From Maritimibacter sp. (GTDB lineage Bacteria > Pseudomonadota > Alphaproteobacteria > Rhodobacterales > Rhodobacteraceae), in assembly GCA_002695005.1 (NCBI GenBank), contig NZNT01000029.1, positions 496,001 to 560,000 of the forward strand: a stretch of DNA of 64,000 bases, in the 5' to 3' direction. Below the pieces are notes generated by a model. That model searched no databases and was not told the DNA's origin. It saw nothing but the letters and a program-made list of their open reading frames with translations. This document shows, piece by piece, positions 8,535 to 21,481 of this stretch; positions within the stretch are counted from its first letter, which is position 1; each line of letters starts with the position of its first letter. A program made the translations under genes and the position numbers.

Positions 8535-9109
8535 TTGCCGGACTTCCTCACTTGCATCCCTGAGTTCACGACCGCCATCGTGGCGCTGTCGGTGATTTCG
8601 AGGCTTTCCTCATCAGACAGCTTGAGCAGCTCGGTCAACCGCGAACGGCCCCGGTTGATTCGGCTCTTGATCGTCCCGATGGCGACGCCACAGGTCTCGG
8701 CAGCTTCCTCATAGGACATGCCGGACGCGCCGACGAGGATCAGCGCCTCGCGCTGTTCCACCGGCAGTTCGGCGAAGACCTTTTCGAAATCGGCGAGCGC
8801 GAGGCGCCCGTCGTGATGCGGTTTCTCGGACAGTGTCTGCGCCATCGCGCCGTCCACATCCTCGACCTCGCGCTTTTTCTTGCGAAGGTCCGAGTAGAAC
8901 GTGTTGCGCAGGATGGTGAACAGCCATGCACGCAGGTTGGTCCCCGGTTTGAACTTGTCGAAATTCTTCCACGCCTTGACGATGGTGTCCTGCACCAGGT
9001 CGTCAGCGGCCGCGGAATTTCGCGTCAGACTCGCAGCAAAGGCACGCATCGCCGGCAGATGCTCGACGACGGCCTCGCGCGGGTCGACGGGACTGTTGTC
9101 ATTCGCCAT
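8531..9109 (-). CDS. ecfG: EcfG-type RNA polymerase sigma factor (general stress response)
   Basis: 192 residues. Region sigma-2 spans about 15-85 (ADDLVQDTIVKAW, then NLRAWLFTILRNTF) and sigma-4 about 105-160 (LPVEQREALILVGASGMSYE with the helix-turn-helix EEAAETCGVAIGTIKSRI). These are the hallmarks of the EcfG subgroup. It would direct RNA polymerase to GGAAC-N16/17-CGTT promoters, several of which are found close by. The start overlaps the end of nepR by 11 bases, which couples sigma and anti-sigma production. Confidence 0.92.
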   Translation of the reverse strand: MANDNSPVDPREAVVEHLPAMRAFAASLTRNSAAADDLVQDTIVKAWKNFDKFKPGTNLRAWLFTILRNTFYSDLRKKKREVEDVDGAMAQTLSEKPHHDGRLALADFEKVFAELPVEQREALILVGASGMSYEEAAETCGVAIGTIKSRINRGRSRLTELLKLSDEESLEITDSATMAVVNSGMQVRKSGN

Positions 9110-9263
9110 GCTTGGACCCCTGATCCTGGTCCTTCAGCTTGGACAGCAAGTCCATGAACTTGTCGGGCACATCTTCTTCGAGCGTGCGTTGGAAAACCTT
9201 ACGGAGATTTTCGTCGATCTGTTCGGCGAGAGGATCCTCTCCTTCGATGTCTTTTTCCGTCAT
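9099..9263 (-). CDS. nepR: NepR anti-sigma factor
   Basis: 54 residues. The central helix carries the NepR pattern IDENLRKVFQRTLEEDVPDKF followed by a Leu-rich helix. NepR binds and holds EcfG until phosphorylated PhyR takes it away. The ATG at 9261-9263 is the only one giving a protein of family length; the frame stays open far upstream but that stretch is antisense to phyR. No convincing ribosome site is seen. Overlaps ecfG by 11 bases and is divergent from phyR, the classical arrangement. Confidence 0.9.
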   Translation of the reverse strand: MTEKDIEGEDPLAEQIDENLRKVFQRTLEEDVPDKFMDLLSKLKDQDQGSKHGE

Positions 9264-9317
9264 GTGTGTCCGCGTCCCATTCCGTGCTGCCTCACAGCGC
9301 TTTTTTTTCAAACTGCT

Positions 9318-9342
9318 GGAACCAAACCAGCAAGTCGGCGTT
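9318..9342 (+). promoter_or_regulatory. EcfG promoter of phyR
   Basis: GGAAC at 9318-9322, a 16-base spacer and CGTT at 9339-9342: an exact consensus match, with the -10 ending 41 bases before the phyR ATG. It implies positive autoregulation of the circuit. Confidence 0.75.
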
Positions 9343-9349
9343 TTGTTCC
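9325..9349 (-). promoter_or_regulatory. Possible EcfG promoter of nepR-ecfG, overlapping the phyR promoter
   Basis: On the minus strand GGAAC (9349-9345), 16 bases, then GGTT (9328-9325), one mismatch in the -10. It faces away from and overlaps the phyR promoter, and lies about 60 bases before the nepR start. Confidence 0.45.
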
Positions 9350-9383
9350 AGACGACGTGAAAAAATTGGGGAAAAAAACAGGG

Positions 9384-10202
9384 ATGGATGGGATGCCCGA
9401 CTCCGAGACAGAATTTCTTTCCGTGAAGGTCGCTGCGCTTCTGCCGTATCTGCGGCGATATGCGCGTGCGCTGACCGGAAGCCAGAAGACCGGCGACACC
9501 TATGCGGCCGCCACGCTTGAGGCGCTGCTCGAAGACCGCTCGGTTTTCGATCTCGGCCTTGACCACAAGGTCGCGCTCTTCCGCGCCTTTCATCAGATCT
9601 GGTCGAGCTCCGGCTCGCCGGTCGACACCGGCGAGGAGGGGATGCACGAACGTGCGCAGCGCCACCTTGCCAAGCTCACCACCAACACCCGCGAGGCGCT
9701 TCTCCTCTATACGGTCGAGGAGTTTCCGACCGCGGACATCGCGCAGATCATGGAGATGCCGGCCGACGAGGTGAACCACCTGATCGGCGTCGCGCGCAAG
9801 GAGATGGAAGACAGCGTGAAGGGCCGTGTCCTCGTCATCGAGGACGAAGCGATCATCGCGATGGATCTTCAGGACATCGTGGCCGACATGGGCCATGCGA
9901 TCACCGGCGTCGCCCGGACCGAGCGCGGGGCGGTGGATCTGGCCGGGAAAGAGACCCCGGATCTGATCCTGTCGGACATCCAGCTTGCCGATGGCTCCTC
10001 CGGTATCGACGCCGTGAACGCGATCCTGAAAAGCGCGGGGGATGTTCCCGTGATCTTCATCACCGCTTTCCCCGAACGGCTGTTGACCGGCGACCGGCCC
10101 GAGCCGGCCTTCGTCATCACCAAACCCTATTCCGAGGATCAGGTCCGCTCTGCGGTCAGCCAGGCGATGTTCTTCGCATCGACCGAAACGCTGCATACCT
10201 GA
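9384..10202 (+). CDS. phyR: PhyR response regulator/anti-anti-sigma factor
   Basis: 272 residues. The N-terminal half (about 10-140) imitates an EcfG sigma factor (LLPYLRRYARALTGSQKTGD, ADIAQIMEMPADEV), the part that captures NepR. The C-terminal receiver (about 147-265) has the acidic pair in VIEDEA, the phospho-acceptor Asp198 (LILSDIQL), Thr227 and Lys247 (ITKPYS). Phosphorylation opens the protein to bind NepR and release EcfG. The start is ATG 9384 or 9393; the earlier one is given. An ideal EcfG promoter is upstream and a terminator follows. Confidence 0.93.
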   Translation: MDGMPDSETEFLSVKVAALLPYLRRYARALTGSQKTGDTYAAATLEALLEDRSVFDLGLDHKVALFRAFHQIWSSSGSPVDTGEEGMHERAQRHLAKLTTNTREALLLYTVEEFPTADIAQIMEMPADEVNHLIGVARKEMEDSVKGRVLVIEDEAIIAMDLQDIVADMGHAITGVARTERGAVDLAGKETPDLILSDIQLADGSSGIDAVNAILKSAGDVPVIFITAFPERLLTGDRPEPAFVITKPYSEDQVRSAVSQAMFFASTETLHT

Positions 10203-11488: not shown

Positions 11489-11929
11489 TCAGCCCTCGCG
11501 CACGACGTAAACCGACGCCTTGGTATGGCGCACGACGCGGGCGGCGTTCGGACCCAGAAGGTAATCCGACAGGTCCGGGTCATGGGCGCCCAGCACGATC
11601 AGATCGGCCTTGTCCTTGTCCGCCGCTTTCAGGATTTCCTGATAGGCCTTCCCCACCGCAACGACATGCCGGCATTTCTTGTTGGCCTCTTCGCCCAGAA
11701 CCTTGCCCACCTCGTCGCAGAGCAGCGCGTGGGCATGTTCCACCGCCTTTTCCGTATGGTCCTGCGTGAAATACCCGCCGACCACCGACATGCCGTAATC
11801 CGGCACGACCGTGATGACGTCGAGCTGCGCGCCCTCGGCCTCGGCGATCTTGTGGGCGCGTCGGAGCACCATGGCCTCGGCCTCGGGGCGGTTGATGTCG
11901 ATGGCGCAGAGCACGGTCTTGAGGGTCAT
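11489..11929 (-). CDS. Universal stress protein (UspA family) linked to TRAP transporter
   Basis: 146 residues with the UspA fold: KTVLCAIDINRPEAEAM at the N-terminus, then LIVLGAHDP and the nucleotide-loop region LLGPNAARVVRHTKASVYVV at the end. The ATG at 11927-11929 overlaps the stop of the TRAP permease gene (ATGA), so the two are translated together. A USP gene in the same position (teaD) tunes the ectoine TRAP transporter TeaABC in Halomonas; a similar regulatory role here is inference from position. Confidence 0.87.
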   Translation of the reverse strand: MTLKTVLCAIDINRPEAEAMVLRRAHKIAEAEGAQLDVITVVPDYGMSVVGGYFTQDHTEKAVEHAHALLCDEVGKVLGEEANKKCRHVVAVGKAYQEILKAADKDKADLIVLGAHDPDLSDYLLGPNAARVVRHTKASVYVVREG

Positions 11930-14541
11930 GCCGGCACTCCTTCGCGGGTGGTGGCCGCAGGGGCGCGGCGGGTTTGCAGGAAGGCGATCAGCGCCATGAG
12001 CGCCAGCGCCGGGATGAAGATGAGTTCCTTGGGCATCTGGTCGGCAGGTGCCCGGACCGCCGAGATCGTCACCGGCTCGTCCCCGTAGAAATCGAAGGAG
12101 GACAGCTTGTCCGAAAGCTGCGTGCCGAACATCGGCTCTTCGAGAATGACGTCGTCGCCCTCCTGCATCAGGAGCAGCCCCCATTCGTCGAGGCGGGCCT
12201 GCGCGCCCTCGACCTCGGGCACGGTGAGCACGACGGTCATGTCCTTCATCTCGAGCGTGTCGAAGTCGGGCCCGGAGATCACGACGCGCAGATCACGGCC
12301 CACCGGGGCGTTCTCCACACGTTGTTCAAGCGCGGTAGGCTCGACCTCGTCATAAGGTGGCTGGATCTGGTCCATGAAGAAGCCCGGACGGAACAGCGCG
12401 AAGGCGATGACGAGCATCGCCACCGTCTCCCAGATCCGGTTCTTGGTGAGGAACCAGCCCATCGTCGCAGAGGTGAAGATCAGGATGCCAATGGTGGCCA
12501 CGATGAACACGATGATCCCCTGCGTCAGCGTCACGTCGATCAGCAACAGGTCGGTGTTGAAGATGAACACGAAGGGCAGGGCGACGGTGCGCAGCGAGTA
12601 GAAGAACGCGGTGAAGCCGGTCCTGATCGCGTCGCCCCCCGACACGGCCGCGGCCGCGAAACTGGCCAAGCCCACGGGTGGAGTCACGTCCGCCATGATC
12701 CCGAAGTAGAACACGAACAGGTGGACCGCGATCAGCGGCACGACGAGGCCGGATTGCGCGCCCAGTTCCACGACGACCGCGACCATGAGCGAGGACACGA
12801 CGATGTAGTTCGCCGTGGTCGGCAGGCCCATCCCGAGGATCAGCGACAGGATCGCCACGAAGATCAGCATCAGGATCAGGTTGCCGCCCGACAGGAACTC
12901 GACGAAATCCGCCATCACCTGCCCGATACCCGTCAGCGACACGGTGCCCACGATGATCCCGGCGGTCGCGGTGGCGAGGCCGATCCCGATCATGTTGCGC
13001 GCCCCGTCGATCATACCGCCGATCAGGTCGATGAGCCCGTCCTTGAGCTTGGCGAACGGGTTGGATTCACCCCGGAACATCGCCTTGAGCGACCGTTGGG
13101 TCAGCAGGATGCCGAACAGCAGGAACGTGGCCCAGAAGGCCGACAGACCCGGCGACTTGCGCTCGATCATCAGGAAATAGACCAGCACGATGATCGGCAG
13201 CAGGTAGTAGAGGCCCGATTTGTAGATCTTCGGAATGTCCGGAAGCTCCACGTCCTCGGAATTTGGATCGTCCGGCTCCAGATCATCCACGGTGGAGGCG
13301 AGGTAGATGAGGCCGACATAGACCAGCGCCAGCAGCGCCGCGAGGATCCAGCCCGAGCCGGTCGGAACCATCGAGGTCACGAGGCGGACGGGGAATTGCG
13401 TGATGTAGCACAGGATCGCGAAGCCAGCGAAGAACAGGAACATGCCCAGGATCGTGCGCCACAGTTTCACGACCTTGTTGCCCAGCGTCGGCATCCGCGT
13501 TTTCACCGCTTCGAGGTGCACGATATAGACCAGCGCGATGTAGGAGATGATCGCGGGCAGGAAGGCGTGGGTGATGACCTCGACATAGGAAATGCCGACA
13601 TACTCGACCATCAGGAAGGCCGCGGCCCCCATGACCGGCGGCATGATCTGGCCGTTGACTGATGAGGCCACTTCGACCGCCCCGGCTTTTTCCGACGAGA
13701 ACCCGACCCGCTTCATCAGCGGGATGGTGAAGGTGCCGGTGGTCACGACGTTGGCGATGGACGAGCCGGAGATAAGGCCGGTGGCCGCAGACCCGACGAC
13801 AGCCGCCTTGGCCGGGCCGCCGCGCAGGTGGCCAAGCGCGCCGAACGCCATCTTGATGAAGTAGTTGCCAGCGCCTGCCTTATCGAGCAGCGCGCCGAAG
13901 AGGACGAAAAGGAACACGAACTTGGTCGACACGCCCAGCGCGATGCCGAACACGCCCTCGGACGTGATCCACATATGCGACATGGCCTTGCGCAGCGATG
14001 CGCCCGCCCAGCGGATCGTGTCGGGCACCACTTCGGACGCGCCGAAGAAGACATAGCCCAGAAAGACCAGCGCGAGCACGACCATGACCGGGCCGAGCGT
14101 GCGGTAGGCGGCGATGAAGAGGAGCGTGAGACCGGCGAGCGCGGCATAGGCGTCCGTCTGGTCGGCCAGCCCGCCGGCCTGCACGATCTTTTCATAGAAG
14201 AAGTAGCCGTACAGCGCGAGGATCGCGCCGCCCACGGCAAGTATCCAGTCATACCACGGCACCCTGTCCTTGGGCGCCGAGCGGAACAAAGGATAGGCCA
14301 TCGCGGACAGGAAGATCGCGAAGGCGAGGTGAATCTGGCGCGAGTTGTTGATCGCGTCGGACGGCAGGATATAGGGCGCCCAGGGCGAAGCGAGCAGCAC
14401 CTGGAAGATCGACCAGATCAGCGCGACGGCGGCGATGAAAAGCCCGAGGCCCCCCGGAACGCTGCGCGCGCCACTGTCGGAGGCGGCGACAAGCTCCTGA
14501 AGTTCGTCTTCGTTCAGGCTGCGTTTCTCACTGTCGGACAT
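11926..14541 (-). CDS. TRAP transporter permease, fused small and large subunits (TAXI type)
   Basis: 871 residues with roughly 18-20 membrane helices. The N-terminal part (about 35-190) corresponds to the DctQ-like four-helix subunit; the large DctM-like subunit follows (about 210-660), with GLISGSSIANVVTTGTFTIP and ILGMGLPTTANYIVVSSL as its two characteristic re-entrant loop regions. The last 170 residues (about 690-860) look like the DUF3394 extension seen on TAXI-type permeases. It imports a solute delivered by the periplasmic binding protein encoded just upstream, driven by the Na+ gradient. ATG 14541 is preceded by GGAGGGACA. Confidence 0.92.
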   Translation of the reverse strand: MSDSEKRSLNEDELQELVAASDSGARSVPGGLGLFIAAVALIWSIFQVLLASPWAPYILPSDAINNSRQIHLAFAIFLSAMAYPLFRSAPKDRVPWYDWILAVGGAILALYGYFFYEKIVQAGGLADQTDAYAALAGLTLLFIAAYRTLGPVMVVLALVFLGYVFFGASEVVPDTIRWAGASLRKAMSHMWITSEGVFGIALGVSTKFVFLFVLFGALLDKAGAGNYFIKMAFGALGHLRGGPAKAAVVGSAATGLISGSSIANVVTTGTFTIPLMKRVGFSSEKAGAVEVASSVNGQIMPPVMGAAAFLMVEYVGISYVEVITHAFLPAIISYIALVYIVHLEAVKTRMPTLGNKVVKLWRTILGMFLFFAGFAILCYITQFPVRLVTSMVPTGSGWILAALLALVYVGLIYLASTVDDLEPDDPNSEDVELPDIPKIYKSGLYYLLPIIVLVYFLMIERKSPGLSAFWATFLLFGILLTQRSLKAMFRGESNPFAKLKDGLIDLIGGMIDGARNMIGIGLATATAGIIVGTVSLTGIGQVMADFVEFLSGGNLILMLIFVAILSLILGMGLPTTANYIVVSSLMVAVVVELGAQSGLVVPLIAVHLFVFYFGIMADVTPPVGLASFAAAAVSGGDAIRTGFTAFFYSLRTVALPFVFIFNTDLLLIDVTLTQGIIVFIVATIGILIFTSATMGWFLTKNRIWETVAMLVIAFALFRPGFFMDQIQPPYDEVEPTALEQRVENAPVGRDLRVVISGPDFDTLEMKDMTVVLTVPEVEGAQARLDEWGLLLMQEGDDVILEEPMFGTQLSDKLSSFDFYGDEPVTISAVRAPADQMPKELIFIPALALMALIAFLQTRRAPAATTREGVPA

Positions 14542-14640: not shown

Positions 14641-15609
14641 TTACTCTAGCCAGCCCTGTTCCTGGTAATACTTCTCGGCACCGGCATGGAGCGGCGCGGA
14701 CAGACCGGCGGACGCCATCTCTTCCGGCACGAGGTTCGCAAAGGCCGGGTGCAGACCCGTGAAGTCTTCGAAGTTCTCGAACACCGACGAGACGACGGTG
14801 TAGACCGCGTCTTCGGACACGTTCGACGAGGTGACGAAGGTCGCGCCGACACCGAAGGTCATCGTGTCCTCGTCATTGCCGCGATACATGCCGCCGGGGA
14901 TGGTGGCCGTCCGGTAGAACGAGTTTTCGTCGATCAGGCCCTGAACGGCGTCACCCGCCACTTCGACCAGCACGGAATCGCAGGCGGTGGTCGCCTCCTG
15001 GATCGAGCCGGAGGGGTGACCGACGGTATAGACCATCGCGTCGATCTGGTTGTCGCAGAGCGCGGCGGATTGTTCGGCGGCCTTGAGCTCGGTCGCGAGC
15101 GCGAAGTCGTCCATGGTCCAGCCTTTGGCTTCCATCAGCACTTCCATCGTGCCGCGCTGACCGGAACCGGGGTTGCCGATGTTCACGCGCTTGCCTTGCA
15201 GGTCGTCGAAGGTGGTGATGCCGGAATCGGCGCGGGCGACCACGGTGAAGGGCTCCGGGTGGACCGAGAAAACCGCGCGAAGCTCTTCGAACGGCCCGGC
15301 CTCTTCGAAGCGCGAGGTGCCGTTGTAGGCGTGGTACTGCCAGTCCGACTGGGCGACGCCGAATTCAAGCTCGCCCTCGCGGATCGTGTTGATGTTGTAG
15401 ACCGAGCCGCCGGTGGATTCGACTGAGCAGCGGATGCCGTGGTCGCGGCGTCCCTTGTTGACGAGCCGGCAGATCGCGCCGCCGGTCGGGTAATAGACGC
15501 CCGTGACGCCGCCGGTCCCGATGGTGATGAACTCTTCCTGCGCCATCGCGGGCGCCGTGAAGGCCACCGTCGCGAGGGCGGCAAAGCCCAGTTTGATGTG
15601 TTTCATCAT
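14641..15609 (-). CDS. TAXI-family TRAP transporter solute-binding protein
   Basis: 322 residues, periplasmic. The signal peptide is about residues 1-23 (cleavage after AMA). The mature part opens with EEFITIGTGGVTGVYYPTGG, the family signature, and continues with the VESTGGSVYNI and GVAQSDWQYHAYNGTSRF segments typical of TAXI (TRAP-associated extracytoplasmic immunogenic) proteins. The ligand cannot be read from the sequence; known family members bind glutamate or similar acids. Starts at the first of two adjacent ATGs, with GGGAGAAAAT upstream. Gene order is binding protein, hairpin, permease, USP. Confidence 0.92.
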   Translation of the reverse strand: MMKHIKLGFAALATVAFTAPAMAQEEFITIGTGGVTGVYYPTGGAICRLVNKGRRDHGIRCSVESTGGSVYNINTIREGELEFGVAQSDWQYHAYNGTSRFEEAGPFEELRAVFSVHPEPFTVVARADSGITTFDDLQGKRVNIGNPGSGQRGTMEVLMEAKGWTMDDFALATELKAAEQSAALCDNQIDAMVYTVGHPSGSIQEATTACDSVLVEVAGDAVQGLIDENSFYRTATIPGGMYRGNDEDTMTFGVGATFVTSSNVSEDAVYTVVSSVFENFEDFTGLHPAFANLVPEEMASAGLSAPLHAGAEKYYQEQGWLE

Positions 15610-15640
15610 ATTTTCTCCCGTTGCTTCTGGTTGGTTGACT

Positions 15641-16591
15641 TCAAAGACCGATCACCTCGCCAAGGGCCAGGTTGGCGGTCTCGATATCCGCGATCCGTTC
15701 GGTCGCGGCGGGTCCTGCGCGTTTCGCGACCATGGCCATCAGTGTCTCCACGAAGAACATGGTCGCCACGTAGGACGAAAAGAAATTGGGGCTGTCGGTG
15801 GGCACCACCACCCGCGCCGAGGCATGGCGCAGCGCGGGGCAGGTGTGCGTGTCGGTGACGACGAGGACGAAAGCGCCCCGCGTATGGGCGAATTCGGCAG
15901 CGCGGATCGAGGTGGTCGAAAATGGCGGCTTCGTGATGACGAACAGCGCATCACGGGAATCGAGGTCTGTGACCGCGCTCCCGATGGAGCCGCCCATTCG
16001 CCCGGCGGGCGTCCAGGCGTCACCCAGGAAGTTGCCCATATAGGCCGCGTATTCCGCGATGGCGGTGGAGCCGAGCCCGCCCAGCACGACGACGCGCCGT
16101 GCCTCGTGCAGGTATTTCGCGATTTCCTCGAACCGGCTCGTGTCGAGGGCGTCCACCAGCCCGTCGATATTGGCGACACAGGCATCCCGGCTGCGCGCGA
16201 CAAGGCTGCGGCCCTCGGTGTCGCTTTCGACCTGCAACGCCCCGGCGCGGTCGGCAAAGCTCGAGTGTCGCCGCTCAAGCCGCTTGCGCATACTCTCGCG
16301 CAGCTCCTCGAAGTTCTGGTAGTCGAGCGCCTTGGCGAGCCGGGTGAAGGTGGCGGGCGCGAGGCCCGAATGGTCCGCGACGGCGCGCAGCGAGCGGGTG
16401 GCGGTGTCGAGGGGATTGGCCGCGATGTAATCGCCAGCTTCACGCAGACGGGCGCTGAGGCTGTCATAGGACGTCGCAAGTCGTTCCTCGAAGCTGGTCA
16501 GCACACGCCCCCCGTAACCGTCAAAAGCAGAACCGAGTCGGAGCGTTTCATCTGTTTCATATCTTGTCAACGGTTGAACCATCTGTTTCAT
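15641..16591 (-). CDS. MurR/RpiR-family transcriptional regulator
   Basis: About 316 residues. N-terminal helix-turn-helix domain (about 10-90; TRSLRAVADHSGLAPATFTRLAKALDY) and a C-terminal SIS domain (about 130-270; ARRVVVLGGLGSTAIAEYAAY, then DALFVITKPPFSTTSIRAAE) expected to bind a phosphorylated or carboxylated metabolite. Start at ATG 16591 or 16582; both lie in a 17-bp palindrome that may be the operator. Divergent from the aminotransferase-BKACE operon and upstream of the TRAP genes, so it probably controls both. Confidence 0.88.
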   Translation of the reverse strand: MKQMVQPLTRYETDETLRLGSAFDGYGGRVLTSFEERLATSYDSLSARLREAGDYIAANPLDTATRSLRAVADHSGLAPATFTRLAKALDYQNFEELRESMRKRLERRHSSFADRAGALQVESDTEGRSLVARSRDACVANIDGLVDALDTSRFEEIAKYLHEARRVVVLGGLGSTAIAEYAAYMGNFLGDAWTPAGRMGGSIGSAVTDLDSRDALFVITKPPFSTTSIRAAEFAHTRGAFVLVVTDTHTCPALRHASARVVVPTDSPNFFSSYVATMFFVETLMAMVAKRAGPAATERIADIETANLALGEVIGL

Positions 16592-16601
16592 GCTGAAACA
16601 T
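16545..16601. promoter_or_regulatory. Probable RpiR operator region
   Basis: A perfect inverted repeat TGTTTCA-TGC-TGAAACA at 16584-16600, plus further half-sites in GTTTCATCTGTTTCAT at 16545-16560. The region lies between the divergent regulator and aminotransferase genes, where an autoregulating repressor would bind. RpiR sites with TGAAA/TTTCA arms are known; the assignment is inference. Confidence 0.55.
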
Positions 16602-16636
16602 GTTGAATGACCGAGTCGGTCCGGGAGCCTACGGCC

Positions 16637-17956
16637 ATGAGCCACGTTTTTCATCGTTCCGCCACATCTTCACCCCCTGTCGCAACACGCGGGGATGGCG
16701 CCTATCTTTTTGATAAGGCGGGAAAACCCTACCTCGACGGGTCCGGGGGAGCGGCGGTGTCCTGCCTTGGTCATTCCGACCCGGACGTCATCGGGGCGAT
16801 CAAGGCGCAGGCCGATGCCCTGCCCTTCGCCCACACCGGGTTCTTCACCTCGGAACCGGCGGAACGGCTGGCCGACCGGCTGATCGCCCATGCGCCCGAG
16901 GGGTTGGACAAGGTCTATTTCGTCTCCGGCGGGTCCGAGGCGGTGGAGGCCGCGCTCAAAATGGCGCGGCAGTATTTCGTGGAAACGGGTGAGCCGCAGC
17001 GGTCGCGCTTCATCGCGCGGCGGCAAAGCTACCACGGCAACACGCTGGGCGCGCTGGGCACTGGCGGCAATGCATGGCGGCGGGCGCAGTTCCAGCCGCT
17101 GATGGTCGAAACCAGCCACATCGCCCCTTGCTACGCCTATCGCGGGCAGGAGGAGGGCGAGGATGCGGTGGCCTATGGTCGCCGTGTCGCGGACGAGTTG
17201 GAGGCGGAACTCCTGCGCGTCGGGCCCGAGACGGTCATCGGCTTCATCGCTGAACCCGTGGTCGGCGCGACGATGGGCGCGGTGCCCGCCGTGCCGGGCT
17301 ATTTCAAGCGCATCCGCGAAATCTGCGACCGCTACGGCATCCTGATGATCCTCGACGAGGTGATGTGCGGCATGGGCCGGACCGGCACGCTGTTCGCCTG
17401 CGAGCAGGACGGGGTGACGCCCGACATCGTGACCATCGCCAAGGGGTTGGGCGCGGGATACCAGCCGATCGGCGCGACGCTGTGCACGGCGCGTATCTTC
17501 GAGGCGTTCGCGCAGGGGTCGGGCTTCTTCCAGCACGGCCACACTTACATCGGCCACCCGATGGCGACCGCGGCGGCGGACGTCGTCGTGACCAAGCTGA
17601 CCGAGGGCGGCATGGCCGCGCGGGCGGCGGATATGGGCGAAAAGCTGGGCGCGGCGCTGACCGACGCCTTCGGCCAGCATCCCCATATCGGTGACATTCG
17701 CGGACGGGGCATGTTCCGGGGGCTCGAGATCGTCGCGGACCGCGAGACCAAGGCCTCCTTCGACCCCGCGTTGGGCATCCACAAGAAGGTCAAGGCCGCG
17801 GCCTTCGAGGCCGGGCTCATCTGCTACCCGATGGGCGGAACCATCGACGGGGTGCAGGGCGACCACGTCCTGCTCGCCCCGCCCTTCATCCTGACCGACG
17901 ACCAGCTGGGCGAATTGATCGACAAGCTCGGTACGGCCTTCGGGGCGGTGCTGTGA
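16637..17956 (+). CDS. Class III (omega) pyridoxal-phosphate aminotransferase
   Basis: 439 residues. Fold type I landmarks in order: DGSGGAAVSCLGHSDP (about 34-49), VYFVSGGSEAVEAALKMARQ (93-112), YHGNTLGAL (132-140), LMILDEVMCGMGRTG (236-250) with Asp240, and the Schiff-base lysine at Lys269 in TIAKGLGAGY. The family acts on beta-alanine, taurine, polyamines and other omega or beta amino acids; the substrate is not fixed by sequence. The gene overlaps the BKACE gene at its stop, suggesting it delivers a beta-keto acid to that enzyme. Start ATG 16637 (MSHVFHR). Confidence 0.9.
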   Translation: MSHVFHRSATSSPPVATRGDGAYLFDKAGKPYLDGSGGAAVSCLGHSDPDVIGAIKAQADALPFAHTGFFTSEPAERLADRLIAHAPEGLDKVYFVSGGSEAVEAALKMARQYFVETGEPQRSRFIARRQSYHGNTLGALGTGGNAWRRAQFQPLMVETSHIAPCYAYRGQEEGEDAVAYGRRVADELEAELLRVGPETVIGFIAEPVVGATMGAVPAVPGYFKRIREICDRYGILMILDEVMCGMGRTGTLFACEQDGVTPDIVTIAKGLGAGYQPIGATLCTARIFEAFAQGSGFFQHGHTYIGHPMATAAADVVVTKLTEGGMAARAADMGEKLGAALTDAFGQHPHIGDIRGRGMFRGLEIVADRETKASFDPALGIHKKVKAAAFEAGLICYPMGGTIDGVQGDHVLLAPPFILTDDQLGELIDKLGTAFGAVL

Positions 17957-18705
17957 TGCTGCCCTCGCTCATGGTCGCCCCGAACGGTGCCTCGAAAACC
18001 CGCGCCGATCATCCCGCGCTGCCGGTCACGCTGGACGAGGTGACGGAGGCCGCGCGGGCCTGCCGTGCCGCCGGGGCCGACGGGCTTCACCTCCACCTGC
18101 GCGATGGCGGCGGGGGCCACCTGCTCGACACCGGTGCGTATCGCGAGGCGTTGACGCATCTGGGCGAGGCGCTTCCCGATATGCCGGTGCAGATCACGAC
18201 CGAGGCGGCGGGGCGCTATGGTCCGGGCCATCAGAAATTCGTGGCGCTCAATTCCGGTGGCACCCTCGTCTCGGCCGCATGGCGTGAGATCACGGGGGAG
18301 CCGGGGGCAACCGCGTTTTATGAACAGGCGGCGGATGCGGGGATTGCCGTGCAGCATATCCTTTACGACGTGAGCGACGCCGAAGGCCTCGCGCAAACGC
18401 TGCCCAAGAGCCTCCTGCGCGACTCGCGGCTCCAGCTCATCTTCGTGCTCGGGCGTTATGTCGACGGACAGGTCTCGACGCCGGACATGCTGCATCCTTT
18501 CACGGACTGGATGCGCGCCACGGACATCAACCCGGACTGGATGCTCTGCGCCTTCGGGCAGGGAGAGACCGCGTGCCTCGCCGAGGCGCATCGCGCCGGG
18601 GGCAAGTGCCGGGTTGGGTTCGAAAACTCGCTCGTCAACGCCGACGGAACCACCGCTCCGGACAATGCGGCCCGTGTCGCCGAGGTGCGCGCGGCGCTGG
18701 GCTAG
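17956..18705 (+). CDS. Beta-keto acid cleavage enzyme (BKACE, DUF849 family)
   Basis: 249 residues, slightly short for the family (commonly 270-310). Family traits: opening APNGASKTRADHPALP, the zinc-binding HxH at His46 and His48 (GLHLHLR), ITTEAAGRY, and the late GFENS with its zinc-site Glu. BKACE enzymes use Zn2+ and acetyl-CoA to convert a beta-keto acid into acetoacetate and a new acyl-CoA. The ATG at 17956 overlaps the aminotransferase TGA. The last bases form a CTAG shared with the stop of the convergent receiver gene. Confidence 0.88.
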   Translation: MLPSLMVAPNGASKTRADHPALPVTLDEVTEAARACRAAGADGLHLHLRDGGGGHLLDTGAYREALTHLGEALPDMPVQITTEAAGRYGPGHQKFVALNSGGTLVSAAWREITGEPGATAFYEQAADAGIAVQHILYDVSDAEGLAQTLPKSLLRDSRLQLIFVLGRYVDGQVSTPDMLHPFTDWMRATDINPDWMLCAFGQGETACLAEAHRAGGKCRVGFENSLVNADGTTAPDNAARVAEVRAALG

Positions 18706-19091
18706 TGCTTGGCCACCCGGTCGCCATGATGGGTAACGACCGCCACGAGATCTTCGGGCGGGGTGCGGGACGGCAGGAAGGCGCAGGCATTGGGGCTCAT
18801 CGAAAACACGGACCCGTCCGAGAAGAAGGACGATGCCGTCACAAAGACCACCTTGGCCGCCGGATGCCGGTAGGCCGCGTAATCCGCCACGGCCATCGCG
18901 CCGGAGCCGGGCAGGTCCAGATCGGCCACGATCATGTCCACATGCCCGTCGCGCAGCCGGTCGAACGCCGTCTCGGTCGTGCGGACGAGAGTCGCGCGCG
19001 CGCCCTGCCGTTCCAGGTGCCTTTGCCAAAGGCGACCGAGGTCGGCATCTGTTTCGACGATCAGGACGTCCACAGAATCACTCGAATCCAA
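18702..19091 (-). CDS. Single-domain response regulator with altered switch residues
   Basis: 129 residues, a receiver domain only. VDVLIVETDADL gives the acidic site, MIVADLDLPGSG the phospho-acceptor Asp, and KVVFVTASSF the conserved Thr. The usual Lys-Pro after strand 5 is replaced: the sequence reads CAFLPSRTPPEDL, with no Lys at that place. Phosphorylation signalling may therefore be changed. No kinase gene adjoins it. Stop codons of this gene and BKACE interleave in one CTAG. Confidence 0.8.
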   Translation of the reverse strand: MDSSDSVDVLIVETDADLGRLWQRHLERQGARATLVRTTETAFDRLRDGHVDMIVADLDLPGSGAMAVADYAAYRHPAAKVVFVTASSFFSDGSVFSMSPNACAFLPSRTPPEDLVAVVTHHGDRVAKH

Positions 19092-19092
19092 T

Positions 19093-19167
19093 CTGTAGGT
19101 GCACTTGCCGGATGGCTCATTCTACACCAAGCGCCCCAGGAACAAAATCTACCGAATCCTACACCAA
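19093..19167. promoter_or_regulatory. Repeated CTACACCAA motif upstream of the DUF1636-cobCD operon
   Basis: CTACACCAA occurs at 19122-19130 and 19159-19167, 37 bases apart, and the inverted form TGTAGGTG lies near 19094-19101. They sit between the receiver gene and the DUF1636 gene. The spacing and orientation suggest a regulator site; no cobalamin riboswitch was seen here. Confidence 0.35.
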
Positions 19168-19257
19168 TGAAAGAGGTGACGGAGATATAGGATAACCAGC
19201 CCTTCACCATTGCTTTCGTGGCGGTTTTCCGTTTCAAGCAGCGAAAAAAGGAACACC

Positions 19258-19632
19258 ATGACACCGACCTGGATCACCATTTGCGACACCTGCAAGCGCG
19301 ACGACTGGGCCGCCAAGGGCATTGAGCGGACCGATGGGCAGGTTCTGGCCGATCTGGTGGAAGCTGCGGCGGCCGACACGGGCCTGAACGTGCGCCGGAC
19401 CTCCTGCCTCATGGGCTGCGACCATTCCTGCAACGTCGCGGTGCAGGCGTCGGGCAAACTTTGCTACACGCTGGGCCGGTTCGAGCCGACCGAAGAGGCC
19501 GCGCAGGGCATCGTGGACTGGGCCGTTCTCCATGCCGACAGCGCGACGGGGCAAGTGCCCTACCGGACCTGGCCGGTGGCGGTGAAGGGGCATTTCGTGA
19601 CCCGGCATCCGCCCTTGCCCGGGGCCGAATGA
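19258..19632 (+). CDS. DUF1636 thioredoxin-fold ferredoxin-like protein (cobalamin-linked)
   Basis: 124 residues. Cysteines are arranged as ICDTCKRDD near the start and then RRTSCLMGCDHSCNVAV (C-x3-C-x3-C), fitting a thioredoxin-like [2Fe-2S] ferredoxin fold or another metal site. DUF1636 genes are regularly found in cobalamin or cobalt loci; the biochemical role is not established. ATG 19258 has AAAGGAAC upstream. It overlaps cobC by ATGA, and cobC overlaps cobD, forming one operon. A second DUF1636 gene lies at 28424. Confidence 0.8.
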   Translation: MTPTWITICDTCKRDDWAAKGIERTDGQVLADLVEAAAADTGLNVRRTSCLMGCDHSCNVAVQASGKLCYTLGRFEPTEEAAQGIVDWAVLHADSATGQVPYRTWPVAVKGHFVTRHPPLPGAE

Positions 19633-20573
19633 CCACCCCGCGCGACCACGGCGGCGGCCTCGACGCCGCGATGCCGCATTGGGGCGGGACGCGCGCCGAC
19701 TGGATCGACCTGTCGACGGGCATCAACCCGAGCCCCTTTCCGCTCCCCCAAATACCGTCCCAAGCGTGGGCGGCCCTGCCTGACACCGGCGCGATGGCCG
19801 CACTGGAAACGGCGGCGCGCGACTTCTGGATGGTGCCCGATGGGGCGGGTGTGGTCGCCGCGCCCGGCGCCTCGGCCCTCATCGCGCGCATTCCCGCGCT
19901 CTTCGCCCCGGGGCGGGTGCGGATCGAGGAACGGACCTACAACGAACATGCCGCCGCCTTTTCACAATCCGGGTGGGAGGTCGTGCGCGACGGTCCCGCC
20001 GAGGCGCGTGTCGTGGTGCATCCGAACAATCCCACCGGGCGCATGTGGTCGGGCGAGGACGACCATCCCCGAGGCCTCACCATCATCGACGAAAGCTTTT
20101 GCGACATCGCGCCGGACGATACGCATGTACCGGCGCGCGGGGCGGAGCCGGGGGTCGTCATCCTCAAGTCGCTGGGCAAGTTCTGGGGCCTTGCGGGACT
20201 GCGCCTTGGCTTCGCGATCGGGGACGCGGCCCTGATCGACGCGTTGCGCGAGATGCTCGGCCCCTGGCCGGTCTCCGGCCCCGCGCTGACGGTCGGGCAC
20301 GCGGCGCTGACCGACATCGACTGGGCCAACCGGACGCGCCAGCGCCTCAGCGCCGATGCCGCGCGGCTCGACGAGTTGATGCAGGCGAAGGGGGCCGAGG
20401 TGGCGGGCGGCACGGCGCTCTTCCGGCTCTACGACGTGGGCGATGCGGCGGCGTGGCAGGACCGGCTCGCCCGTGGCCGGGTCTGGAGCCGGGTGTTTCC
20501 CTATGAGCCACGCTGGCTGCGCCTCGGCCTGCCGCCTGAGGATCGCTGGGATCAGCTGGAGGCCGCGCTGTGA
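19629..20573 (+). CDS. cobC: Threonine-phosphate decarboxylase (CobC, PLP enzyme)
   Basis: Makes (R)-1-amino-2-propanol phosphate from L-threonine phosphate, the linker of the lower ligand of cobalamin. 314 residues, fold type I aminotransferase-like: LSTGINPSPFPLP (29-40), HPNNPTGRMW (131-140), TIIDESFCDI with the PLP-binding Asp (about 151-160), the lysine of SLGKFWGLAG (Lys184), then LRLGFAIG. Start ATG 19629 overlaps the DUF1636 stop. This is the Pseudomonas/Rhodobacter name; Salmonella calls it CobD. The next gene, cobD, uses its product. Confidence 0.92.
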   Translation: MTTPRDHGGGLDAAMPHWGGTRADWIDLSTGINPSPFPLPQIPSQAWAALPDTGAMAALETAARDFWMVPDGAGVVAAPGASALIARIPALFAPGRVRIEERTYNEHAAAFSQSGWEVVRDGPAEARVVVHPNNPTGRMWSGEDDHPRGLTIIDESFCDIAPDDTHVPARGAEPGVVILKSLGKFWGLAGLRLGFAIGDAALIDALREMLGPWPVSGPALTVGHAALTDIDWANRTRQRLSADAARLDELMQAKGAEVAGGTALFRLYDVGDAAAWQDRLARGRVWSRVFPYEPRWLRLGLPPEDRWDQLEAAL

Positions 20574-21481
20574 GCTTTGCCGCCGTTCTCGTCATCGCCC
20601 TCCTGATCGACGCGGTGGCCGGAGAGCCGGAGCGGCTCTGGTCGCGCGTGCCGCACCCGGCGGTCATCATGGGGCGCGCCGTCGGCTGGGCGGACGAGAT
20701 GCTGAACCACGGGCGCGGGCGGGTCGTGACCGGGGGCGTGACCATCGCGGCGCTCACCGCGCTCGCCGCGAGCGTCGGCTGGGCGCTCGCGCAACTGGGC
20801 TGGGTGGTCGAGGCGCTTGCGGCCGCGATCCTGATCGCCCACCGCTCGCTCGTCGATCATGTGGAGGCGGTGGCGGACGCCCTGTCGCTGTCGCTCGCCG
20901 ACGGACGCGCGGCGGTGGCCCGGATCGTGGGGCGCGACACCACCGACATGGACGACGGCGACGTGGCGCGCGCGGCGATCGAGAGCGGGGCCGAGAACTT
21001 CTCGGACGGGGTCGTGGCCCCCGCCTTCTGGTTCCTCGTCGCGGGGCTGCCGGGGATCATGGCCTACAAGATGGTCAATACCGCCGACAGCATGATCGGC
21101 TACCGAACACCGCGGCATGAGGCGTTCGGCAAGGCGGCCGCGCGGCTCGACGACGTCCTCAACTGGATTCCCGCGCGGATTTCCGCCGTGCTGATGTTCC
21201 TCGTGAACCACCGCCCCGGCGGCTGGGCGACGGTCGCCGGCGACGCCCCCCTCCATCGCTCGCCGAACGCTGGCTGGCCCGAGGCGGCGATGGCGGTGAG
21301 CCTTGACGTCGCTCTATCCGGCCCGCGCAGCTACGAGGGCGAGGTTCGCGACTACCCATTCGTGAACGAGACCGGCGAGCGCGACATCGGCGCGACCGAG
21401 GTCGACCGTTCCGTATCGGTGCTCTGGCGGGCGTGGATCGCGCTTCTCGTGGTCGTGTTCATCATCGCGGTTGTCTGGTGA
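20570..21481 (+). CDS. cobD: Adenosylcobinamide-phosphate synthase (CobD/CbiB)
   Basis: Membrane enzyme joining aminopropanol phosphate to adenosylcobyric acid. 303 residues with 4-5 helices. Family motifs: LIDAVAGEPERLWSRVPHP (about 9-27), VGRDTTDMDDGDVARAAIES, ENFSDGVVAPAFWFLVAGLP, and MVNTADSMIGYR. The ATG overlaps the cobC stop (ATGA-type), so linker synthesis and attachment are translated together. Confidence 0.93.
   Translation: MSFAAVLVIALLIDAVAGEPERLWSRVPHPAVIMGRAVGWADEMLNHGRGRVVTGGVTIAALTALAASVGWALAQLGWVVEALAAAILIAHRSLVDHVEAVADALSLSLADGRAAVARIVGRDTTDMDDGDVARAAIESGAENFSDGVVAPAFWFLVAGLPGIMAYKMVNTADSMIGYRTPRHEAFGKAAARLDDVLNWIPARISAVLMFLVNHRPGGWATVAGDAPLHRSPNAGWPEAAMAVSLDVALSGPRSYEGEVRDYPFVNETGERDIGATEVDRSVSVLWRAWIALLVVVFIIAVVW

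Follow-up and report, generated by a model that had tools for sequence, protein, structure and literature searches.

A 64,000-nucleotide stretch of the genome of Maritimibacter sp. (assembly GCA_002695005.1, contig NZNT01000029.1, positions 496,001 to 560,000; hereafter the window) carries a cluster in which a TAXI solute-binding protein, a fused TRAP permease and a universal stress protein (USP) stand beside an RpiR-family regulator, a class III aminotransferase and a protein of the DUF849 family. That the cluster is a real conserved unit is nearly certain. The reading preferred here, to which we give a chance only just short of even, is that of a self-contained, probably RpiR-regulated module for the use of beta-glutamate (3-aminoglutarate). 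The transporter, which resembles the glutamate transporter VcGluP, would import beta-glutamate (or beta-glutamine), as its ligand site suggests. The aminotransferase would then move the amino group to a keto acid, leaving 3-oxoglutarate, and the DUF849 protein, by its sequence a Zn2+-type TIM barrel without the catalytic base of the beta-keto acid cleavage enzymes (BKACE), would decarboxylate this compound to acetoacetate without CoA. Acetoacetate could enter central metabolism via acetoacetyl-CoA synthetase or a CoA-transferase; a family search found AACS (713 bits against a cut-off of 521) and SCOT A (240 against 128.5) elsewhere in the window genome. Some relatives have another cassette (cassette B), in which an ABC importer of the GlnH type and an amidase-like gene, a C45 hydrolase, would supply this enzyme pair with beta-glutamine. 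Since the importers point to a compound like glutamate or glutamine, and since its deamination should give the substrate of a beta-keto-acid decarboxylase, beta-glutamate or beta-glutamine is the compound that fits. The keto acid from beta-glutamate is 3-oxoglutarate, on which activity was reported for a DUF849 group known as G6. We infer the aminotransferase and DUF849 steps of this route.

The evidence for a conserved unit comes from 104 distinct DUF849 proteins of the same clade with their neighbourhoods, the window's own included, for which a floor of 37% identity across 80% of the query was set, together with the motif Q.I.[YFH]; 87 of them have full flanks, with 5 kb or more on either side. 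An aminotransferase lies within 600 bases of the DUF849 gene in 92 of the 104 (77 of the 87 with full flanks), and a TAXI gene within 8 kb in 69 (59 of the 87). Aminotransferases of less than 55% identity were left uncounted, namely a class III enzyme of 32% in L043 and a class IV enzyme in L112. In 20 of the 87 full loci, the surrounding 8 kb hold no TAXI and no GlnH/C45 gene. The exact gene order of the window recurs in 52 of the 104 loci, its own copy, a cut locus, not being counted among them. Other orders are a single operon TAXI-TRAP-USP-aminotransferase-DUF849 with a divergent RpiR gene (L119-L121, L244), the order aminotransferase-DUF849-TAXI-TRAP(-USP) (L065, L216; with RpiR first in L115) and one with DUF849 ahead of the aminotransferase (L221), while the genes farther out differ from locus to locus. 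A gene set that is kept together while its order reshuffles most simply serves one function, and chance does not account for the arrangement. As the loci share a common ancestry, these counts are not numbers of independent events. In L122 (G020:C1 near 2693705), the region of RpiR-aminotransferase-DUF849 also holds a segment of 38 residues with 74% identity to TAXI; it seems to be a TAXI remnant, and a full TAXI gene (64%) is present elsewhere in that genome.

The general chemistry of class III aminotransferases and of Claisen reactions is taken as background here. The partner of the DUF849 protein is an enzyme that makes a keto acid. In L112 (9004-10682) the class III enzyme gives way to a class IV aminotransferase that abuts the DUF849 gene, and in Microvirga the DUF849 gene is preceded by a carnitine-dehydrogenase-like 3-hydroxy-acid dehydrogenase (279 bits, below the cut-off of 414). 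A class V aminotransferase near the DUF849 gene in L011 is a doubtful case, given the gap and the neighbouring DUF1045 gene, a family that we take to be linked with phosphonate genes. These replacements support the proposal of a preliminary description of the sequence, namely that the cluster serves to take up and degrade an amino compound, with the aminotransferase making the substrate of the DUF849 protein.

The same description had assigned BKACE chemistry to the DUF849 protein (a beta-keto acid and acetyl-CoA as substrates), and this part of its interpretation is not supported. The active site was aligned with that of Kce for 90 rows of the clade, which represent 85 distinct sequences, plus 12 canonical controls. 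Position 143, occupied in BKACE by the catalytic base Glu, is Ile in all 90 rows and all 85 distinct sequences. E141 is likewise replaced by Gln in 90 of 90 (85 of 85 distinct), and D231 by Asn in 89 of 90 (84 of 85), whereas the twelve canonical DUF849 controls retain E141, E143 and D231. The Zn ligands are kept (H46 and H48 in 89 of 90 rows each, E230 in 90 of 90; 84, 84 and 85 of the 85 distinct sequences), all three of them in the window protein, and so are R226 (89 of 90) and Tyr145 (87 of 90). The role of D231 and the numbering of R226 are those that we assume for Kce. According to PMC11961710, E171 is the catalytic base of BKACE15 and the substitution E171L abolishes activity. Because Tyr173 is equated with Tyr145 in PMC12871164, E171 of BKACE15 would be the equivalent of E143. 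Judged by these residues, the window protein is very probably not a canonical BKACE, the canonical chemistry having been lost, and BKACE was dropped as the first choice. It is proposed instead to be a Zn-dependent beta-keto-acid decarboxylase. All 12 plasmid relatives bear the automatic name '3-keto-5-aminohexanoate cleavage protein', which the active site contradicts in the six that were checked and which is probably wrong for the clade. Two further candidate marks of the clade were considered: S82T was dropped, as canonical DUF849 proteins carry T82 too, and G84E is alignment-dependent, holding in most alignments and shifting in one small one by a two-residue insertion. The one outlier among the 90 rows (L097/L117, in G014), below the 37% floor and outside the 104, has lost the two histidines of the Zn site as well as R226 and N231; it lies in a TAXI-TRAP-USP-DUF849 run in which no aminotransferase was recognised, and has the look of an enzyme that has decayed or become inactive.

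An AlphaFold2 model of the window protein (pLDDT 95.6) has the TIM-barrel fold, with Kce (2y7f) as the best solved match (Z 27.9, root-mean-square deviation 2.5, 244 residues), followed by other DUF849 structures and then by cis-epoxysuccinate hydrolase (5zmu, Z 23.9) and ObcA (Z 21). The solved DUF849 structures are 20-25% identical to the window protein over the structural alignments. Searches of solved structures with phmmer and profiles returned DUF849 members, weak TIM barrels and chance matches. In a census of 120 genomes of the phylum, 53 of 66 DUF849 places could be compared: 40 have both E143 and D231, seven belong to this clade and six are of other non-canonical types. The latter differ among themselves; this clade is the largest uniform non-canonical type in the census. 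A survey of 725 DUF849 proteins (PMC4922564) describes a group G6 of 70 proteins as 'not BKACE, presenting decarboxylation activity', with sixteen cases of beta-ketoglutarate activity, and a group G7 of 139 proteins as inactive and heterogeneous. The share of the family (seven of 53 against 70 of 725) and the uniformity of the clade suggest, without proving it, that the clade corresponds to G6 rather than to G7.

The substrate, which had been left unnamed, can now be narrowed to a class, since the two main transporters are of a glutamate type (TAXI) and a glutamine type (GlnH). According to PMC11574862, which names 13 ligand-site residues in VcGluP, this protein binds L-glutamate with a Kd of 65 nM; binding depends most strongly on Y45 and Q93, whose mutation lowers the affinity 213- and 990-fold. 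In the TAXI protein of the window ten of the 13 are kept, including Y45, S75, Q93, E125 and Y200, and three are changed (S40G, D157Q and M201T). By its residues, the transporter points to a glutamate-like cargo.

Cassette B has, where TAXI-TRAP-USP would stand, GlnH-GlnP-GlnQ together with a C45 hydrolase (NF040521) and another RpiR regulator, divergent from an aminotransferase-DUF849 pair with the same active site. Eight distinct full loci of this kind were found, together with a cut locus (L075, with permease, GlnH, aminotransferase and DUF849) and one with the same operon in which no aminotransferase was recognised (L069); an annotated example is plasmid pPAN2 of Paracoccus pantotrophus. 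The GlnH proteins score 372 and 391 bits in the equivalog model against a cut-off of 303. Apart from this, GlnH-like proteins are rare: at E<=1e-40 just two of 61 family genomes have one, and in one of the two it belongs to cassette B. Of the 13 positions that we take to be the contact residues of E. coli GlnBP, three differ in L236, a GlnH relative that is not part of the cassette. A third type of transporter, an NMT1/SsuA-like ABC system, precedes aminotransferase-DUF849 in P. aminovorans.

The intergenic region between the RpiR and aminotransferase genes holds repeats that are likely RpiR sites. At least one TGTTTCA or TGAAACA is present there in 55 of 67 loci of cassette A, the window's type, against 2.6% in mononucleotide shuffles, and a spacing of 31 bases is the commonest (46 pairs over the 56 loci with two or more sites). 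Such sites occur in four of 11 loci having neither transporter and in none of the eight loci of cassette B. A palindromic operator was considered and set aside: the full TTTCA-TGAAA is found in just one of the 67 cassette-A loci (the window also has one), and the repeated TGTTTCA is the conserved feature.

All six genes named in the preliminary description were recovered by profile searches, and their strands confirm its two divergent units (Table 1): RpiR, TAXI, permease and USP on the minus strand, aminotransferase and DUF849 on the plus strand, where the start of DUF849 overlaps the end of the aminotransferase gene. The USP is not fused to the permease; it is a separate gene with a 4-base overlap. 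The cluster had been drawn at 14641-18705, where TAXI, RpiR, aminotransferase and DUF849 do lie; the permease and USP genes are outside this interval. The RpiR assignment rests on a SIS domain (35.2 bits, Pfam cut-off 25); HTH_6 scores 27.3 bits, slightly below its Pfam cut-off of 28.3 (E 3.7e-6); the NCBIfam RpiR models stay below their cut-offs too. The open frame of the aminotransferase begins at 16607, and the likely start is at 16637, as the NF005685 model aligns from MSHVF; the name of this model (PRK07483/NF005685) is uninformative on the substrate.

Table 1. Genes and sites of the cluster, with positions in the window.
Feature	Position	Strand	Evidence and remarks
USP, universal stress protein, last gene of the transporter unit	11489..11929	-	PF00582 79 bits
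Fused TRAP permease (TRAP_fused), 871 aa, C-terminal DUF3394 'claw' domain	11926..14541	-	TIGR02123 621 bits; PF11874 207 bits
TAXI solute-binding protein, GluP-like	14641..15609	-	TIGR02122 368 bits (cut-off 84); 186/297 residues identical (63%) to VcGluP (8s4j)
RpiR-family regulator	15641..16504	-	Frame open to 16654, likely start near 16504 from codon model; SIS domain
Likely RpiR operator between RpiR and aminotransferase	16544..16600		TGTTTCA at 16553 and 16584; GTTTCAT at 16545; TGAAACA at 16594
Class III aminotransferase, NF005685/PRK07483 group	16637..17956	+	NF005685 760 bits (cut-off 485); PF00202 320 bits
DUF849 protein, 250 aa, divergent Q141/I143/N231 clade	17953..18705	+	PF05853 141 bits (cut-off 24.8)

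Several observations weigh against the beta-glutamate route, and those on the transporter side lead to a different explanation. Seven TAXI-TRAP operons (L225, L229, L230, L231, L234, L241, L242) agree with the TAXI protein of the window at all 13 residues of the ligand site and have neither the aminotransferase nor DUF849 within the 12-14 kb taken. Among those genomes, G188 has two DUF849 proteins, both canonical, and the best DUF849 match of G009 is 29% identical; G204 and G012 keep aminotransferase-DUF849 elsewhere. The ligand site is therefore no marker of a beta-glutamate transporter, was abandoned as a marker of the cassette, and L-glutamate is possibly the normal cargo. Perhaps the transporter is one for plain glutamate and came to be linked with the enzymes for also taking beta-glutamate, or for another reason. 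On the explanation that it takes ordinary L-glutamate (L-glutamine in cassette B), the two enzymes act on another compound and are linked to it by regulation or by glutamate as amino donor. This is unlikely in our estimate. In its favour, besides the seven operons, the GlnH of cassette B keeps nearly all of the presumed GlnBP contact positions. However, it leaves unexplained why two unrelated transporters of glutamate and glutamine type are joined to one enzyme pair in several orders, and why a C45 hydrolase accompanies the glutamine-type transporter. It is distinctly less probable that the module serves some other glutamate-like amino acid, N-methylated or otherwise substituted, with a correspondingly different beta-keto acid. 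In L111 (5877-10782) a fused DAO-GcvT protein (N-demethylase-like) and a GNAT gene lie inside the aminotransferase-DUF849 operon and the adjacent TAXI site is altered (T157, W200, A201), which suggests an N-methylated substrate there. Such extras were seen in just two loci, the other being L248 with a C-terminal fragment of GcvT, and are not found in the window's cluster.

On the enzyme side, the aminotransferase of this type is missing beside DUF849 in 12 of the 104 loci, and the same active-site set is found beside aromatic ring-cleavage genes in L080 and L094/L114, where no aminotransferase was recognised; L080 and L114 have an FAD monooxygenase, an alpha/beta hydrolase and an extradiol or LigB dioxygenase, and L080 also an FAA hydrolase. 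In L118, a close relative of L114, DUF849 stands beside a DctP/DctM TRAP transporter and dehydrogenase genes, again with no aminotransferase recognised. These loci are unexplained by beta-glutamate use, and the chemistry of the clade may be wider. The placement in G6 rather than G7 follows from share and uniformity only, which also counts against the proposed decarboxylation, and with the Zn ligands, R226 and Tyr145 kept, BKACE-like chemistry could proceed by another base. Canonical BKACE activity itself, by which a beta-keto acid derived from a beta-amino acid and acetyl-CoA would give acetoacetate and an acyl-CoA, is very unlikely. It would account for the membership in PF05853, the conserved fold and an upstream partner that yields keto acids. 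In seven loci (L033-L035, L038, L041, L050, L057) CoA-ligase-like (AMP-binding) and thiolase (acetyl-CoA C-acyltransferase) genes follow USP on the same strand; they could process the acetoacetate product and suit any acetoacetate-forming route, BKACE as well as the decarboxylase. Yet profile searches of the window's own cluster found no CoA ligase, CoA-transferase or thiolase gene, the change equivalent to Ile143 in BKACE15 is the one that abolishes its activity, and this clade has neither of the two residues that 40 of the 53 census proteins keep together. More improbable still is a chemistry on the keto acid other than decarboxylation, for example hydrolysis or an aldol-type cleavage. The fold neighbours that include cis-epoxysuccinate hydrolase and ObcA, the aromatic-pathway context of L080 and L114 and the divergent DUF849 chemistry of BsfD (PMC12871164) speak for it; the published non-BKACE group with detected activity (PMC4922564) is a decarboxylating one.

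The window genome is 4.27 Mb in size, and its nearest named relative among the genomes scanned is Maritimibacter alkaliphilus HTCC2654. A scan for sigma-70 promoters found none, and terminator-like sites numbered six against 4.4 expected. At lower window coordinates than the USP gene, the end of an open frame at 9099-10196 (minus strand) matches the anti-sigma factor NepR with 46.7 bits, and a general-stress-response locus may lie there. Past the cluster (18705-21481) lie a small response-regulator receiver protein on the minus strand and then cobalamin genes on the plus strand, namely a CobD/CobC-type decarboxylase (just below its cut-off) and CbiB.

The genera concerned have marine habitats, and beta-glutamate is an osmolyte that abounds in the ocean. 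According to PMC8269262 no other identified metabolite of Nitrosopumilus maritimus is as abundant as beta-glutamate (730 mM), and in two profiles its abundance was higher at depth than near the surface; together with beta-glutamine it is a methanogen osmolyte, according to PMC1224877. Among the openly licensed literature matches listed, no title or abstract concerned a bacterial breakdown route of beta-glutamate, and such a route seems undescribed. We consider it a little less than evenly likely that the cluster belongs to a bacterial pathway devoted to beta-glutamate and beta-glutamine, with DUF849 as a CoA-free 3-oxoglutarate decarboxylase, that acts as a sink for the chief osmolyte of marine ammonia-oxidising archaea. 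If this is true, the genes for beta-glutamate breakdown are named, a marker for metagenomes becomes available and some of the DUF849 proteins set apart as 'not BKACE' gain a function. The analysis also warns against the automatic cleavage-protein name for this clade.

Among known systems, the closest to the transporter is the glutamate TAXI-TRAP system VcGluP/VcGluQM (VC0430/VC0429) of Vibrio cholerae, whose permease is fused and has the DUF3394 claw like that of the window, and whose TAXI-TRAP-UspA neighbourhood is similar (PMC11574862). In its account of the neighbourhood, that paper gives argR and mdh as the V. cholerae neighbours and makes no mention of an aminotransferase-DUF849 pair, unlike in the window. 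The importer of cassette B resembles E. coli GlnHPQ: in eight of eight complete GlnH proteins, 12 of the 13 presumed GlnBP positions match, with G119S as the sole change, and the cassette B operon additionally has the C45 hydrolase and RpiR genes, divergent from aminotransferase-DUF849. The DUF849 protein shares the TIM barrel, Zn ligands, R226 and Tyr145 with Kce (2y7d-2y7g) and BKACE15 (8rio, 8rip, 9hnf), which in contrast have E143 (E171 in BKACE15), E141 and D231, all three absent from the 250-residue protein of the window. The G6 proteins of Bastard et al. (2014) are likewise non-BKACE by the account in PMC4922564, with a uniform active site and a similar share of the family; the clade may be identical with G6, and the reported beta-ketoglutarate activity fits the cassette.

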